Origin: Ammoniphilus oxalaticus | Lineage (GTDB): Bacteria > Bacillota > Bacilli > Aneurinibacillales > RAOX-1 | Length of the DNA: 64,000 bases | Assembly (NCBI RefSeq): GCF_003609605.1 | Contig: NZ_MCHY01000008.1 | Span: 372,001 to 436,000, forward strand | Direction of reading: 5' to 3' | Position numbers and translations under genes: made by a program | The notes under the pieces: generated by a model | What the model was told of the DNA's origin: nothing | What the model saw: the letters and a program-made list of their open reading frames with translations, nothing else | Database searches by the model: none | In this document: positions 18,068-55,040 of the stretch, in pieces | Position numbering within the stretch: the first letter of the stretch is position 1 | Layout: each line of letters opens with the position of its first letter

Positions 18068-18214
18068 ATGACAGACTTTCTAGTTGAATATACCTATAAT
18101 TGGAAGGTGGAGAAAGCGACAAATCATTGTTTACTTCACACAAATCAGGGAAAAATTCCTATTAAGGCTCAATTCAAGCATCGTTCAAGTTGGAGAAACG
18201 GTTCAAAATATTAA
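18068..18214 (+). CDS. Hypothetical 48-aa protein
   Basis: A short frame, ATG 18068 to TAA 18212-18214, encodes 48 residues rich in Lys, His and aromatic residues with one cysteine (Cys21). Its Shine-Dalgarno AAGGTGG lies 8 nt upstream, which is good support for translation. It ends 20 nt before the GH15 gene and could be co-transcribed with it. I do not recognise the sequence, and it has no membrane segment. It could also be a translated leader for the downstream gene. Confidence 0.4.
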   Translation: MTDFLVEYTYNWKVEKATNHCLLHTNQGKIPIKAQFKHRSSWRNGSKY

Positions 18215-18234
18215 TTTATATAGGAAGTGATTGG

Positions 18235-20214
18235 ATGCCGCGACCGTTGGTCATTGGAAATGGGAAAATGTTGATTAACTTCGACGCTTCGTTGAACATG
18301 CGTGATTTGTATTACCCATATGTTGGTCAGCTCAATCATATCGGAGGCTACTTTTCTCGAATCGGTGTGTGGGTGGATGGGTTGTTTAGTTGGTGTCATG
18401 AAGCAAATTGGACGATTCAACTCGCTTATTTACCGGAGACGTTGGTAACGAATGTTGTCGCAACCAATGCAAAACTAGGGATTCAGCTTACAATTCATGA
18501 TGCTGTTCACCAACGAGAAACAATATACTTAAAGAAAATTATCGTAAAAAATGTATGGGATGAAGATCGAGAAGTTCGTCTCTTTTTCAATCACGATTAC
18601 AGCATTAATGAAACAGAGGTCGGAGATACAGCTGTTTATGATCCGTTACTCAATGCGGTTTACCACTATAAGCGAAACGTGTACATTATGATCAACGGTA
18701 AAACTGAAGATGCGGGAATGTATGAGTACAGCATCGGCGTAAAGCGGTTTAATCATGCTGAGGGCACGTGGCGCGATGCGGAGGATGGACGGCTGGGCGG
18801 AAATCCAATCGCCCAAGGATCCGTAGATAGTACAGTAAGTTTTCGGTTGAATGTGCCTGCCCATCAGGAAAAGCCGCTTTGGTATTGGATTGCGATGGGT
18901 GAAAACTTAACGGAAGCGAAAACATTGAATGAGTATGTGTTAGAAAATAACCCCGATTTGTTGTTGCGCAGGGTACAAGTCTTTTGGGAGCGATGGGTTA
19001 ATAAAACGGACCGCGACTTTGCTGATTTAGGAGACGACGTTATTTCCTTATTTAAACAAAGCTTGTTGATTGTGCGTACTCAAACGGATCAGAATGGAGC
19101 GATCATTGCTGCCAATGATTCTGATATATTACAATTTAACCGCGATCACTACAGTTACATGTGGCCGCGCGATGGCGCCTTTATCGCTTATGCGATGACA
19201 AAAGCGGGATATGATGGTGTCGTCAGCCCTTTTTTTGATTTCTGTTCAAATGCGTTAACAGAAGAGGGTTATCTCCATCATAAGTACAATCCAGACGGTT
19301 CGGTCGGATCGAGTTGGCACCCTTTTATTCACGATGGTAAGTACCAATTGCCGATCCAGGAAGATGAAACGGCGCTCGTGTTGTTTGCTCTATGGGAACA
19401 TTATAAAGAGCATAAACAAATTGAGTCGTCTCAAAATTTATATGCCACCTTAATTCGTCCAGCAGCTAACTTTTTGACGCAGTATGTTGATGAAAAGGTA
19501 AATCTGCCTCATGCCAGCTATGACCTATGGGAGGAAAGAAGAGGAATTTTCACCTTCACTTCCTGTACAGTGTACGGTGGCTTGATTGCTGCGGCCAATT
19601 TCGCGTCCTTGTTTGGAGATGATCGGCGTCGGCGTCGCTATGAAGAAACGGCGGAAAGAATCAAGCGGGGAATTGAACAATATCTATATGACGAACAGGT
19701 TGGACGATTTATTCGCGGGATATACATTGATCGCGACGGTTCGATTACGAAAGATTTGACGTTGGAAAGCAGCTTGTTTGCGCTCTTCGCTTTTTACGTA
19801 TTTGACATCGATGATCCGCGCGTCATTCGCACGATGGAAGCGGTTGAAACGGGATTGAGCGTAAACTCTGATGTGGGTGGAGTTAGTCGCTACCAGAATG
19901 ATTACTACTTTCAAAAATCGCAAGACATCGAAAACATACCGGGAAATCCGTGGATTATTTGCACACTGTGGATGGCTGAATGGCGGATTGCCCGCGCGAG
20001 AACAGTTGCAGACCTGGCTGTACCGCGACAAACGCTGGAGTGGGTTGTGAAAAATGCTTTAGAAAGCGGGGTTCTCCCTGAACAACTCGATCCGTATACA
20101 GGCAGCCCATTATCTGTGGCGCCGTTAACCTGGTCTCATTCCACTTTTGTATTAACCGTTTTAAAATATTTAGAGAAATATGGGGAACTTACGAACAGAG
20201 CGCCTTTGTCCTAA
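18235..20214 (+). CDS. GH15 family glycoside hydrolase (glucoamylase/trehalase-type)
   Basis: A 659-aa protein without a signal peptide, so it is probably cytoplasmic. It has an N-terminal beta-sandwich domain (VIGNGKMLINFD near the start) and an (alpha/alpha)6 barrel with YMWPRDGAFIAYAM and EDETALVLFALWEHY. Candidate catalytic acids are in DLWEERRG (general acid) and PEQLDPYTG (Glu616, general base), followed by PLTWSH. GH15 enzymes hydrolyse alpha-1,4, alpha-1,6 or trehalose linkages with inversion; the exact substrate cannot be read from sequence. ATG 18235 follows AGGAAGTG. It stands in the normally conserved ileS-lspA interval. Confidence 0.88.
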   Translation: MPRPLVIGNGKMLINFDASLNMRDLYYPYVGQLNHIGGYFSRIGVWVDGLFSWCHEANWTIQLAYLPETLVTNVVATNAKLGIQLTIHDAVHQRETIYLKKIIVKNVWDEDREVRLFFNHDYSINETEVGDTAVYDPLLNAVYHYKRNVYIMINGKTEDAGMYEYSIGVKRFNHAEGTWRDAEDGRLGGNPIAQGSVDSTVSFRLNVPAHQEKPLWYWIAMGENLTEAKTLNEYVLENNPDLLLRRVQVFWERWVNKTDRDFADLGDDVISLFKQSLLIVRTQTDQNGAIIAANDSDILQFNRDHYSYMWPRDGAFIAYAMTKAGYDGVVSPFFDFCSNALTEEGYLHHKYNPDGSVGSSWHPFIHDGKYQLPIQEDETALVLFALWEHYKEHKQIESSQNLYATLIRPAANFLTQYVDEKVNLPHASYDLWEERRGIFTFTSCTVYGGLIAAANFASLFGDDRRRRRYEETAERIKRGIEQYLYDEQVGRFIRGIYIDRDGSITKDLTLESSLFALFAFYVFDIDDPRVIRTMEAVETGLSVNSDVGGVSRYQNDYYFQKSQDIENIPGNPWIICTLWMAEWRIARARTVADLAVPRQTLEWVVKNALESGVLPEQLDPYTGSPLSVAPLTWSHSTFVLTVLKYLEKYGELTNRAPLS

Positions 20215-21712: not shown

Positions 21713-21741
21713 TTGACAGAATCGTGTCCAAGTGGCATACT
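21713..21741 (+). promoter_or_regulatory. SigA promoter of the pyr operon
   Basis: A perfect TTGACA at 21713-21718 and CATACT at 21736-21741 are 17 bp apart, with TGG as an extended -10. The element sits directly after the pseudouridine synthase stop codon and just before the attenuator leader. Confidence 0.8.
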
Positions 21742-21773
21742 CAACATTAGCAAATTGAATAGTTGAACCTTTA

Positions 21774-21910
21774 ATATCAGTCCTGTGAGGCTGACAAGGT
21801 TGTCGGAATATCTAAGTAGCTATTTTTTGATAAGGTTAGGACTGAGGACTCCTACGCCTTTCTTTCAAGCTGCTCAATAGGCTCCCTGTCGCTGACAGGG
21901 AGCTTTTTTG
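21774..21910 (+). promoter_or_regulatory. PyrR-type attenuation leader before carA
   Basis: The 5' part contains the PyrR binding loop: stem CAGTC (21778-21782), loop CTGTGA, GGCTG (21789-21793), then ACAAGG. This closely follows the known PyrR target. An outer pairing joins CAGTCCT (21778-21784) with AGGACTG (21838-21844). A candidate antiterminator pairs AGTAGCT (21815-21821) with AGCTGCT (21868-21874). A 10-bp terminator follows: 21881-21890 with 21894-21903 and a T-run to 21910. In the known mechanism, PyrR bound to UMP stabilises the anti-antiterminator and the terminator forms. No pyrR gene is in the window. Confidence 0.85.
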
Positions 21911-22002
21911 TTCAATATCAGACAATATGCCAATGCTGGGTATAATAGAGCGTGAATAAGCTGGGCCGAATGAGAGCGTAATTAATTAGGAGGGTGAAAG
22001 TG

Positions 22003-23103
22003 ATGAAGGCTAGGTTAATACTCGAAGATGGAACGGAGCTAACAGGAAAGTCATTTGGAGCGGTCCGTGAATCTTATGGTGAAGTCATTTTTAACACCGC
22101 AATGACAGGCTATCAAGAGATGTTGTCAGATCCAACGGGGTGCGGTCAAATCGTCACAATGACTTATCCTTTACAAGGAAATTATGGAATAAACCGGGAT
22201 GATTTCGAAGCGGTTCGTCCCTATCTTCATGGAATCGTCGCGCGTGAACATTGTGAATATCCGTCCAATTTTCGAAGTCAACAAACGTTAGACTCGCTGT
22301 TAAAAGAATACGATATTCCAGGCATTAGCGAGATTGACACTCGCATGTTAACGCGTAGAATCCGTGATAAAGGGACGATGAGGGGCGTAATCACGACGAA
22401 AAACACGCCTGTTGAAGAGATATTAGAAACGTTGCGATTAAGGCCAGCGCAAACGGATCAGGTCTCGATTGTCTCCACAAATCGCATCTACTGTTCACCA
22501 GGTCGCGGAGCGCGGATTGCGTTGATTGATTATGGGGTAAAGCATGGCATCTTACGCGAACTGTCAAATCGACACTGTGATATTACGGTTGTTCCTTATA
22601 ATACGCCTGCCAAAACAATCGAACAATTGCGTCCTGACGGGATCGTTCTATCGAACGGACCTGGCAATCCAAAAGATGTGACGCAAGCGGTTGAGACGGT
22701 TCAGCAGCTGATGCAGACTTTTCCGGTATTTGGTATTGGACTTGGTCATCAATTGTTTGCTTTAGCGAACGGAGCGGATACGGAAAAGATGAAGTTTGGT
22801 CATCATGGCGCAAATCATGCGGTAAAAGACGTGGAGCAAGATCGCGTGATGATCACGGCGCAAAGTCATGGCTACACGGTTACGCCAGCATCAATTGAAA
22901 ACACAGATCTGATTGTCACTCATCTCGCGGTGAATGATGGAACGATCGAGGGTTTAAAACATAAAACGTTACCCGCATTTTCGGTTCAATATCATCCTGA
23001 AGCCTCGCCTGGTCCAGAAGATTCAAGTTATTTATTTGATCACTTCTTAAATATTGTCGTGGAATATATAAAGGGGGTTCATCCAAATGCCACTACTCGC
23101 TAA
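22003..23103 (+). CDS. carA: Carbamoyl phosphate synthetase small subunit, predicted glutaminase-dead
   Basis: CarA normally hydrolyses glutamine and channels NH3 to CarB. The 366-aa product has the N-terminal CPSase domain (residues 1-145) and a C-terminal class I glutamine amidotransferase domain. The nucleophile is missing: the usual GICLGHQ reads GIGLGHQ, with Gly246 encoded by GGA at 22738-22740. His331 and Glu333 (YHPEAS) remain. Compared from memory with E. coli CarA, Ser47 is Thr45 and Asn311 is Ser288 (QSHGY), and NGPGDP reads NGPGNP (Asn222). The subunit is probably structural, with ammonia as nitrogen donor. ATG 22003 is 9 nt after AGGAGG; an in-frame GTG at 21994 has no spacing. 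It overlaps carB by 17 nt. Confidence 0.93.

Positions 23104-26297: not shown

Positions 26298-26305
<8 letters not shown>
23087..26305 (+). CDS. carB: Carbamoyl phosphate synthetase large subunit
   Basis: CarB makes carbamoyl phosphate from bicarbonate, two ATP and ammonia. The 1072-aa protein has both homologous ATP-grasp halves intact. The carboxyphosphate half has [19 protein letters not shown], a Gly-rich ATP loop near residue 175 and [12 protein letters not shown]. The carbamoyl phosphate half has [19 protein letters not shown] and [12 protein letters not shown]. An oligomerisation region lies between them, and a C-terminal MGS-like allosteric domain starts at about residue 930. ATG 23087 lies inside carA behind GGGGG. 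Full conservation here contrasts with the altered glutaminase of its partner. It overlaps pyrK by 8 nt. Confidence 0.97.
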
Positions 26306-28716
<2,411 letters not shown>

Positions 28717-28719
28717 AAT

Positions 28720-29373
28720 ATGCTTAGTCGAGAAAGAGAGATAGCAAAACAGTTGTTAGAAATTAAGGCGGTGCACCTTCGTCCCGATCAACCATTCACG
28801 TGGACCTCGGGCTTGAGATCGCCGATCTATTGTGATAATCGGATGACGATGTCATTTCCGCTTGTTCGCCGATTAATTGCCAGTTCATTTGCCCAAATCA
28901 TTAGCGAGCAGTATCCTGAAGCGGAAGTAATCGCTGGCACGGCTACGGCTGGTATCCCGCATGCGGCTTGGGTTGCGGAAGAACTTGGTCTGCCAATGAT
29001 TTACGCGCGGGACAAAGCGAAAGGACACGGTCGTAACAATCAAATTGAAGGTGTTCTGCAAGTGGGGCAGCAAGTCATTGTCATTGAAGATTTGATTTCA
29101 ACGGGGATGAGTTCGCTAAATGCGGCGAAGGCTGTTGAAGCGGCAGGCGGCCAGGTGTTGTCAGTCATGGCCATTTTTTCGTACCAGTTTGCGCGAGCGG
29201 AACAAGCCTTTAGAGAGGCAGGTTATCCTTTACATACGTTAAGTCATTACACTGCTTTATTAGCTGAAGCAAAAGAACAAGGGATTCTCCAAGAGGAACA
29301 AATGGAGGAACTAACTTCATGGAAAGTCGATCCAAATGCTTATACAGAGAAATGGAATCAACAAACGAGCTAA
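28720..29373 (+). CDS. pyrE: Orotate phosphoribosyltransferase
   Basis: PyrE joins orotate and PRPP to form OMP. The 217-aa protein has the PRPP-binding motif VIEDLISTGMSS (about residues 122-133), where the more common GGSS is GMSS, and the flexible-loop segment AKGHGRNNQIEG. ATG 28720 follows GGAGGAT. It is the last gene of the operon; a strong terminator follows. The pathway steps encoded by pyrB and pyrC are not in this operon. Confidence 0.95.
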   Translation: MLSREREIAKQLLEIKAVHLRPDQPFTWTSGLRSPIYCDNRMTMSFPLVRRLIASSFAQIISEQYPEAEVIAGTATAGIPHAAWVAEELGLPMIYARDKAKGHGRNNQIEGVLQVGQQVIVIEDLISTGMSSLNAAKAVEAAGGQVLSVMAIFSYQFARAEQAFREAGYPLHTLSHYTALLAEAKEQGILQEEQMEELTSWKVDPNAYTEKWNQQTS

Positions 29374-53979: not shown

Positions 53980-55040
53980 TTAAGGGGAGCGATAGGACAG
54001 TTATCTTAAATTTATAAGAATGTATAAAAACTTCATTAGTTTTTTGACCACTTCCCTGACTAAACTGTCATGTTTACGAAGAGCAGAAAGAGGTCAAAAC
54101 CTTCTTTTTACAACGACAATATAAAGTTGAAAGTAAGACCTGGTGAGGTCCTCGTTGAGAAAGCTGGATGGATTAAAACATCCGAACAGGTTCCTATGGA
54201 TGTAAAGTATACGAATCCCAGAGTATCTTTTGATGGAAAGTACTGGTACCTATCCGTTGGAATCGAACAGGAACTTGAAAAGCCTATTTTAACTGATGAA
54301 GTTATTGGGATTGATGTAGGCATCGAAAAACTTGCTGTCTGTTCCAATGGCATGACTTTTAAAAACATGAACAAGACAGCGAACGAAAGAAAGATTGAAA
54401 AGCGTTTACGGAGGTTGCAACGCAACGCTTCTCGAAAATACGAGATGAATAAGGAGGGAGGCCGTTTTGTCAAAACGCGCAACCTTATAAAAATCGAAAG
54501 AACGATTCGTTTGCTACACCGTAAATTGACGAATATTCGCAACAACCACATACACCAAACGACTACCGCTATCGTGAAAACCAAGCCTAGCTCAGTAGTT
54601 ATGGAGACACTAAACATTCAAGGTATGATGAAGAATAAGCACTTATCAAAAGCAATCGCTAAACAATGTCTGTATGACTTTAAAACAAAAATACAGTACA
54701 AATGTGAGAGGTATGGGATTCGATTCATTGAAGCCGATAAGTGGTTTCCATCTTCTAAAATGTGTTCGGGTTGTGGAGACATTAAAAAGGACCTGAAGCT
54801 ATCTGATCGTGTTTACCAATGTGGGTGTGGTTTGAAAATAGATAGAGATTTAAACGCTGCTATCAATTTATCGAAATTAGCAGGATAACACTGAAAAGTT
54901 ACCGCTAATGTGTAGGATTCGTTGTATCCGAATTTACGCCCTTGAAGTGTCACATCAAACGAAAGTAGCTTCGGCAAAATCGGACACACAGAATAGGAAA
55001 GCAAACGGAGATTTATAGATTTTTATAAGTCTTTGGCAAC
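53980..55040 (+). mobile_element. IS200/IS605-family remnant between prkC and rsgA
   Basis: The interval between prkC and rsgA contains only the truncated tnpB and its flanks. The left flank (around 54006-54030) and right flank (around 55013-55032) are AT-rich with similar TTTATA/TATAA blocks, as often seen at ends of these elements, but exact borders cannot be fixed. The right 150 bp (54889-55040) is where the element's right end and guide (omega) RNA would lie; stem-forming segments such as GAAAGTAGCTTC (54961-54972) are present. The rsgA ribosome site lies at or just outside the presumed right border. Confidence 0.6.
54070..54888 (+). pseudogene. 5'-truncated IS605-type TnpB (OrfB) nuclease
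   Basis: The 272 residues match the C-terminal two thirds of TnpB, the RNA-guided nuclease of IS200/IS605 elements. RuvC residues are present: Asp82 in IGIDVGIEKLAV, Glu179 in VVMETLNIQGM and Asp258/Asp260 in KIDRDLNAAINL. The zinc finger is Cys232, Cys235, Cys251, Cys253 (CSGCG and CGCG). About 90-100 N-terminal residues (wedge/REC parts) are missing, and an in-frame TAA lies 9 nt before the ATG, so the gene is cut off rather than mis-started. No tnpA is nearby. It separates prkC from rsgA, which are adjacent in relatives. Confidence 0.85.

Follow-up and report, generated by a model that had tools for sequence, protein, structure and literature searches.

The carA-carB-pyrK-pyrD-pyrF-pyrE operon of Ammoniphilus oxalaticus is preceded by a PyrR-type transcription attenuator. 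The carbamoyl-phosphate synthase (CPSase) encoded at its head is the only one found in the genome, and its small subunit, CarA, carries a glycine in place of the catalytic cysteine of the glutaminase. In the reading that we prefer, and to which we give a probability of roughly three in four, PyrR attenuation would govern a sole CPSase that depends on free ammonia, and the leader would derive from an ancestral pyrR leader that reached carA by stepwise gene losses. The window, i.e. the whole stretch of 64,000 nucleotides that was analysed, corresponds to positions 372001-436000 of contig C8 in a genome of 3,319,172 bases (13 contigs, 99.93% complete). The sample of the order comprised 15 genomes from two families, f1 (that of the window, 4 genomes) and f2 (11 genomes), with the f2 loci covering 8 of the 11 genomes (G002, G005 and G006 fall outside). 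The window's family is the sister of the Aneurinibacillus family, and the NCBI Aneurinibacillus group contains Oxalophagus, Aneurinibacillus and Ammoniphilus.

The PyrR leader in front of carA

The features of the leader and the operon are listed in Table 1. The initial annotation had placed a promoter, a PyrR binding loop and a terminator before carA, and the element was confirmed as a genuine PyrR-type transcription attenuator: a cmscan search of the entire window yielded an RF00515 match of 64.3 bits (gathering score, 54), promoter P1 lies upstream, a terminator precedes the first gene and pyrR is present in the genome. Taken alone, the attenuator is of an ordinary and known kind. Two sites in the genome scored over the RF00515 cut-off, the one before carA and another on contig C9 before pyrR (the third-best match, at 29.9 bits, was below it). 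Within the window's family, the carA leader ranks second by score, behind the pyrR leader of G014. The score of P1 was equalled in 4 of 1000 shuffles of its segment, and a promoter of the same type also precedes the rluD-adjacent leader in G012, G013 and G014, the other members of f1. The PyrR loop is composed of an outer stem (AACCUU/AAGGUU), an inner stem and a CUGUGA loop, and the complete leader folds at -50.7 kcal/mol, compared with a shuffle mean of -40.3 (z -2.6).

Table 1. Positions of the leader elements, genes and altered CarA codons within the window.
Feature	Position	Strand	Basis
Promoter P1, TTGACA-17-CATACT, extended -10, sigma-A-like	21713..21741	+	Sequence, shuffle test
PyrR attenuator RNA, RF00515	21764..21912	+	Covariance model, 64.3 vs 54 bits
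PyrR binding loop (anti-antiterminator)	21766..21801	+	Rfam alignment and minimum-energy fold
Proposed antiterminator, 5' strand GACAAGG, shared with 3' arm of PyrR loop	21793..21799	+	Arm-pairing test
Intrinsic terminator, 12-pair stem and T run	21879..21909	+	Rfam match, sequence
Proposed antiterminator, 3' strand CCCUGUC, shared with 5' arm of terminator	21884..21890	+	Arm-pairing test
Candidate promoter 2, CAGACA-16-TATAAT, 3' of terminator	21919..21946	+	Score reached by 25 of 1000 shuffles
Shine-Dalgarno sequence of carA, AGGAGG	21988..21993	+	Sequence
carA, CPSase small subunit, only copy found	22003..23103	+	PF00988 and PF00117
carA codon 246, GGA, Gly for catalytic Cys (GIGLGHQ; family GICLGHQ)	22738..22740	+	Alignment
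carA codon 288, Ser for Asn (AQSHG for SQNHG)	22864..22866	+	Alignment
carB, CPSase large subunit, only one in genome	23087..26305	+	TIGR01369, 1575 bits, single match over cut-off
pyrK	26298..27092	+	NF000799, 338.5 bits (cut-off 314)
pyrD	27089..28009	+	ORF; same place in related pyr loci; named from gene order and recall
pyrF	27994..28716	+	ORF; same place in related pyr loci; named from gene order and recall
pyrE	28720..29373	+	ORF; PF00156, 26.6 bits; gene order

The candidate antiterminator, also part of the initial annotation, receives some support from the comparison of leaders and is weak in this one. Across 32 leaders of the order, cognate arms paired better than re-dealt arms (mean -9.7 vs -8.6 kcal/mol, the observed mean being reached by 2 of 5000 permutations). 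Two leaders of this set are without a real terminator, in about two the terminator finder picked another hairpin, and the test is only supportive because related leaders are not independent. The duplex in the carA leader amounts to -6.8 kcal/mol with one mismatch, which places it among the weakest of the 32. Forcing the antiterminator costs 10.6 kcal/mol relative to the unconstrained fold of the full leader, and 1.0 relative to that of the truncated RNA. With an antiterminator as weak as this, read-through could be low.

When UMP or UTP is plentiful, PyrR supplied from contig C9 would hold the binding loop, whose 3' arm could then not pair with the 5' arm of the terminator; the terminator would thus be freed and carA-pyrE turned off. 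At low pyrimidine levels, the antiterminator would compete and allow read-through into carA-pyrE. The PyrR protein itself (187 aa; NF003549, 265.8 bits, cut-off 138) is encoded together with pyrP on C9, behind the second PyrR attenuator of the genome.

Candidate promoter 2 (P about 0.025, uncorrected) hints at a supply of carA transcript that might be independent of uracil, and the corresponding segments of G012, G013 and G014 showed nothing comparable. Its TATAAT, with CAGACA at 16 bases, lies 3' of the terminator only in this one of the family's four genomes, and would suit a carA gene that has become free of PyrR and is transcribed from promoter 2 while the leader decays. The weak antiterminator would fit this idea, as would the consideration that uracil alone should not shut off a sole CPSase. 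We regard such a relic as unlikely, given that the score of the leader is the second best in the family, that promoter 1, loop and terminator are intact, and that the genome has a pyrR gene preceded by its own attenuator.

Probable descent of the leader and dispersal of the pyr genes

In B. subtilis, pyrR, pyrP, pyrB and pyrC fill the interval between rluD and carA, with attenuators before pyrR, pyrP and pyrB. As the initial annotation had stated, the window has none of these four genes in the interval from the pseudouridine synthase gene to carA. The two loci have in common the downstream order carA-carB-pyrK-pyrD-pyrF-pyrE and, in the space that separates lspA-rluD from the pyr genes, a promoter, PyrR loop, antiterminator (in the window a proposed one) and terminator. 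They differ in that here a single leader stands before carA, pyrR-pyrP lie elsewhere with their own leader, and pyrB and the dihydroorotase gene are linked to no PyrR RNA. Loci of Halobacillus and Salimicrobium (L033, L035, L036) retain the arrangement pyrR-pyrP-pyrB-pyrC-carA.

Within the order, seven of the eight f2 genomes covered read rluD-pyrR-pyrP-pyrC-carAB onward, pyrR and pyrC each being preceded by an attenuator; G011, also of f2, has pyrR-pyrC without pyrP. In f1, the order is rluD-leader-pyrC-carAB in G013 and G014 and rluD-leader-carAB in G012 and the window, and pyrR-pyrP are located elsewhere behind their own leader in all four genomes. The promoter TTGACA-17-[CG]ATACT precedes the four rluD-adjacent f1 leaders, as it does the eight first leaders of f2 (10-11 of 12 positions), and the seven second leaders of f2, before pyrC, score 6-9 of 12. 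Over the 60 bases upstream, the rluD-adjacent f1 leaders show a mean identity of 0.51 to the first and 0.33 to the second leaders, identity of the PyrR loops being less decisive (0.73 vs 0.68). Since promoter, place and sequence match the Aneurinibacillus pyrR leader, carA would have been brought to its leader by stepwise deletion, and this leader most likely descends from one that once stood before pyrR. The second leader was rejected as the source, as none of its seven instances has a good promoter and its similarity is lower.

In the proposed course of events, pyrB would have left the operon before the radiation of the order and pyrR-pyrP in the ancestor of the window's family, whereas pyrC would have been lost in the window's genome and in G012, every loss moving the remaining genes nearer to the leader. 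The initial annotation had suggested that the upstream genes either moved as a block or were deleted, and that the surviving leader became fused to carA. The fusion was borne out, but the four genes appear to have left stepwise, and transfer of pyrR-pyrP-pyrB-pyrC as one block was rejected, because pyrR-pyrP lie on C9 and the aspartate transcarbamoylase (ATCase) gene lies on contig C2 and is of another type. The successive steps that took the leader from pyrR to carA would be traceable in the genomes of a single order, one gene after another.

The ATCase of the window's genome (315 aa; TIGR00670, 346 bits) is encoded by a gene that stands alone on C2. None of the 15 genomes of the order has its ATCase gene, of a plant/E. 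coli-like type, linked to carB: the two lie on separate contigs or over 330 kb from each other. The closest PDB match of the C2 enzyme was the plant ATCase 6YPO (388 bits, compared with 143 for the B. subtilis enzyme). Its CP-loop reads FSSAIK, where the plant loop reads FSSAAK; F161, S162 and A164 are kept, and A165 is replaced by Ile. A plant-like CP-loop, FSS[AT]IKGE, was seen in the stand-alone ATCases of all 15 genomes (L142; L140-L154), which share F161 with the plant enzyme and differ from it in having Ile at A165. According to a study of Arabidopsis ATC, inhibition by UMP depends on the Phe of the CP-loop, and the loop is there called exclusively conserved in plants (PMC7878868). Feedback of UMP on the enzyme could replace attenuation at this step.

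A canonical pyrC was not found in the window's genome and is also missing in G012. The sole TIGR00857 match in the genome is a 480-aa hydantoinase-family protein encoded on contig C7 (339.1 vs 279.05, subfamily domain), for which the allantoinase model TIGR03178 gave a higher score (372.6 vs 357.85). Of the five other PF01979 matches, three are partial and two were judged by eye to be of other kinds. A tree built from 30 TIGR00857-type proteins found in the order places the C7 protein with those from G012 and G014 (100/100), in a clade separate from the 13 canonical PyrC proteins. HxHxR and MPNT, typical substrate and metal motifs of dihydroorotases, are both present in the 13 canonical PyrC proteins and in this clade (L031, L209, L210), and in none of the 14 others. 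G014 carries both a canonical PyrC and a C7-type protein, whereas G012 and the window's genome have the C7 type only. We infer that the C7 protein, as the only candidate, took over the dihydroorotase step. The whole-genome RF00515 search returned no PyrR RNA over the cut-off at the ATCase gene or at the C7 candidate. Both steps thus lie outside any detectable PyrR control, as the initial annotation had foreseen in proposing that they are controlled separately; they would escape PyrR, and ATCase may be inhibited by UMP at the enzyme. That annotation had also proposed a genome search for pyrR, pyrB, pyrC and further PyrR loops, which located pyrR on C9, one other attenuator over the cut-off and the lone ATCase gene, and no canonical pyrC. 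Its interpretation was partly supported overall; what it had missed is that carAB encodes the only CPSase and that the CarA of this enzyme lacks the catalytic Cys.

Several further observations were made in the compared loci, the window and the genome. In G008 and G009 (L191 7873-8000, L192 10196-10298), the pyrP Shine-Dalgarno sequence (AAGGGAGGAG) forms the end of a PyrR loop that has no terminator. This arrangement suggests that PyrR controls translation there, in an operon that contains attenuators as well. Additional PyrR leaders of f2 precede cytosine permease-like and deaminase-like genes (L184, L186, L190, L194) and an apparent MFS transporter gene (L183, L186, L189), all named by eye. 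In the window's family, a gene for a GH15-family glycoside hydrolase lies between ileS and lspA (window 18190-20214; 73-78% identical in G012-G014) and was not seen at that place in the f2 loci compared. A formate dehydrogenase-like frame (L280 16756-18843) contains one in-frame TGA, at codon 151 (RT*HAPSVTGL); as this is the usual Sec/Cys site, the protein is probably a selenoprotein. At 54070-55000 of the window, a TnpB-like ORF with PF01385 and PF07282 matches, which at 272 aa falls short of the 390 aa cited as the mean length of such TnpBs, has a RAGATH-18 RNA at its 3' side on the same strand (54939-55000, 57.6 bits). TnpBs of IS607 are described as guided by RAGATH-18-derived RNAs (PMC11061315), and the unit is of this known kind, probably with a truncated nuclease.

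A sole CPSase without the glutaminase cysteine

The 94 CarA sequences aligned comprised 80 from loci, 13 from the order (two of them arginine-type) and that of the window, with L032 and L191 representing one organism. Position 246 is Cys in 92 of the 94 sequences and Gly in two (the window's and L037), and position 288, equivalent to the glutamine-contacting Asn311 of E. coli, is Asn in 93. The catalytic residues H331 and E333 are kept. At 87 near-invariant columns, the window's CarA departs six times (V29I, S45T, D222N, C246G, P273A, N288S). Gly246 could be a sequencing error; against this, GGA is two bases away from either Cys codon, and the six near-invariant positions have changed together.

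The glutaminase half of CarA is 62-66% identical to those of G012-G014, which are 80-90% identical among themselves. The corresponding values, again with those among the relatives in brackets, are 69-75% (77-89%) for the N-terminal half, 84% (88-95%) for CarB, 83-85% (87-91%) for PyrD and 74-78% (77-89%) for PyrK. Since the drop in identity is greatest in the glutaminase half, constraint appears to have been relaxed with its centre there.

Class-I amidotransferases need the thiolate of the catalytic Cys, and work on Cys269 mutants of E. coli CarA reportedly showed this residue to be essential for the use of glutamine, but not of ammonia. With the catalytic Cys of its CarA lost, the window's CPSase most likely runs on free ammonia, and CarA would persist as a folded, non-catalytic partner of CarB. 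It could instead be supposed that the locus has undergone ordinary rearrangement only, with a leader working as in B. subtilis and a CPSase that still uses glutamine through an unusual active site. Operons of this kind do vary widely, and CarA is of full length, with His331 and Glu333 in place. The requirement for the thiolate, known from the enzymology of CarA Cys269, makes this supposition improbable, as do the additional change of Asn288, the strong divergence of the glutaminase half, and pabA and PurQ, which point in the same direction (see below).

An ammonia-dependent enzyme of this kind would have a parallel in mitochondrial CPS1, which takes ammonia as its substrate and keeps a glutaminase-like domain without the catalytic Cys; the PDB match for such an ammonia-type CPSase I was 5dot. 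CPS1 and the E. coli Cys269 mutants share with the window's CarA the retention of a glutaminase-like part that lacks this residue. The present case differs from CPS1 in that it is bacterial, has Gly at the place of Cys, lies in a pyr operon and is predicted from sequence. In the CarA of an Erysipelotrichales MAG (L037 10001-11086), likewise encoded in a pyr operon, the catalytic Cys is replaced by Gly and the catalytic His by Asn; it is an independent second case of a probably dead CarA glutaminase. No report on amidotransferase loss in Ammoniphilus or on Cys-less bacterial CarA was found among the open-licence papers listed.

One CPSase large subunit is encoded in the window's genome, as compared with two in each of the 14 other genomes of the order, all of which have an arginine-type carAB. 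An arginine-type carAB lies between argD and argF in G012 and G013 (argC-B-D-carA-carB-F), whereas the window's genome has argC-B-D-F without carAB, argF beginning 24 bases past argD. As the arginine-type carAB has been lost, the carA leader governs the only CPSase found, so that it most likely controls an ammonia-dependent and putatively sole source of carbamoyl phosphate. Two weak ARG-box-like sites precede argC. An ARG box at promoter 2 or near carA was rejected, with none found within 3 mismatches of the consensus. E. coli carAB is described as the single CPSase for arginine and pyrimidines (PMC6245113). Here, too, one CPSase must serve both pathways; the differences from E. coli are the PyrR attenuation, the lack of any ARG box found near carA and the expectation of an inactive glutaminase. 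Repression by pyrimidines would also limit the carbamoyl phosphate for arginine, unless promoter 2 gives a basal, uracil-independent supply. What speaks against our preferred reading is that a PyrR leader on the sole CPSase would starve arginine synthesis in the presence of uracil unless this were compensated, and the finding raises the regulatory question of how arginine can still be made when uracil represses the only CPSase.

Other glutaminases and a possible link to the requirement for ammonium

A PF00117 search of the genome gave four matches, namely CarA (one copy only), GuaA, PyrG and a Peptidase_C26 protein, the last three of which keep the catalytic Cys. As the search yielded only these four, the genome has no PabA, TrpG or HisH of the usual kind. 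The pabA gene adjoins pabB in 13 of the 15 genomes of the order, the exceptions being the window's genome and G012. In the former, pabC follows pabB after 45 bases and pabA is missing between them (L271 8049-8095). G012 has another, 573-aa PabB-like protein, and its case is therefore different. Both trpE and pabB are intact in the window's genome. The trp operon contains no trpG in this genome, in G012 or in G013, so that PabA would have served both syntheses, as it does in B. subtilis; the TrpG function is likely to have gone along with pabA.

PurQ (L285 13907-14590, minus strand) reads GVSNGFQ, with Ser (AGC) for the catalytic Cys of the Thermotoga PurQ motif GICNGFQ. The pur operon otherwise looks intact, with intact frames for PurL and PurS, and PurF keeps EECGIFG. 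No HisH-like protein appeared in the PF00117 search. HisF was not found in 57 stretches of the same genome, which with their overlaps add up to 461,855 bases and cover only a small fraction of it; the his operon was not located in them, and five stretches of C9 chosen for it by synteny contained mostly polysaccharide and transport genes. In the part of the genome searched, tblastn with oxc, frc and yfdE of E. coli gave no match.

Losses of this kind might be the early steps of pathway decay, in an organism developing auxotrophy for arginine, tryptophan, folate and purines in a rich habitat. The genome is small (3.3 Mb, compared with 3.4-6.6 Mb in the order), and several nitrogen genes have been lost. 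This explanation we consider rather unlikely, because intact frames were found for the synthase partners as well as for those trp, fol, pur, arg and pyr genes that were inspected, the damage being confined to the glutaminase parts.

Beyond the preferred reading of PyrR attenuation acting on an ammonia-dependent CPSase, we tentatively put forward a wider proposal, in which we place somewhat less than even confidence. The organism would have given up separate-subunit class-I glutaminases, so that its CPSase, anthranilate synthase, aminodeoxychorismate synthase and FGAM synthase would run on free ammonia, and this would be the cause of an obligate need for ammonium. The PyrR leader would act as the main transcriptional gate on the ammonia-fed carbamoyl-phosphate pool common to pyrimidines and arginine, with the new promoter 3' of the terminator as a bypass. 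The description of Ammoniphilus oxalaticus and Ammoniphilus oxalivorans (Zaitsev et al. 1998) names an obligate requirement for ammonium in its title, as cited in two later sources (PMC9781867, PMC8777752). A sole carbamoyl-phosphate source that depends on ammonia could explain this ammonium-dependent life style.

What makes the case unusual is that a PyrR leader would control a sole CPSase with an apparently dead glutaminase, in a genome in which other separate glutaminases are lost or mutated and their synthases retained. If the wider proposal is true, it would offer a concrete explanation, at the level of genes, for the ammonium requirement of some bacteria, and A. oxalaticus would represent a natural case in which ammonia-dependent biosynthesis replaces ammonia channelling in several pathways at once.
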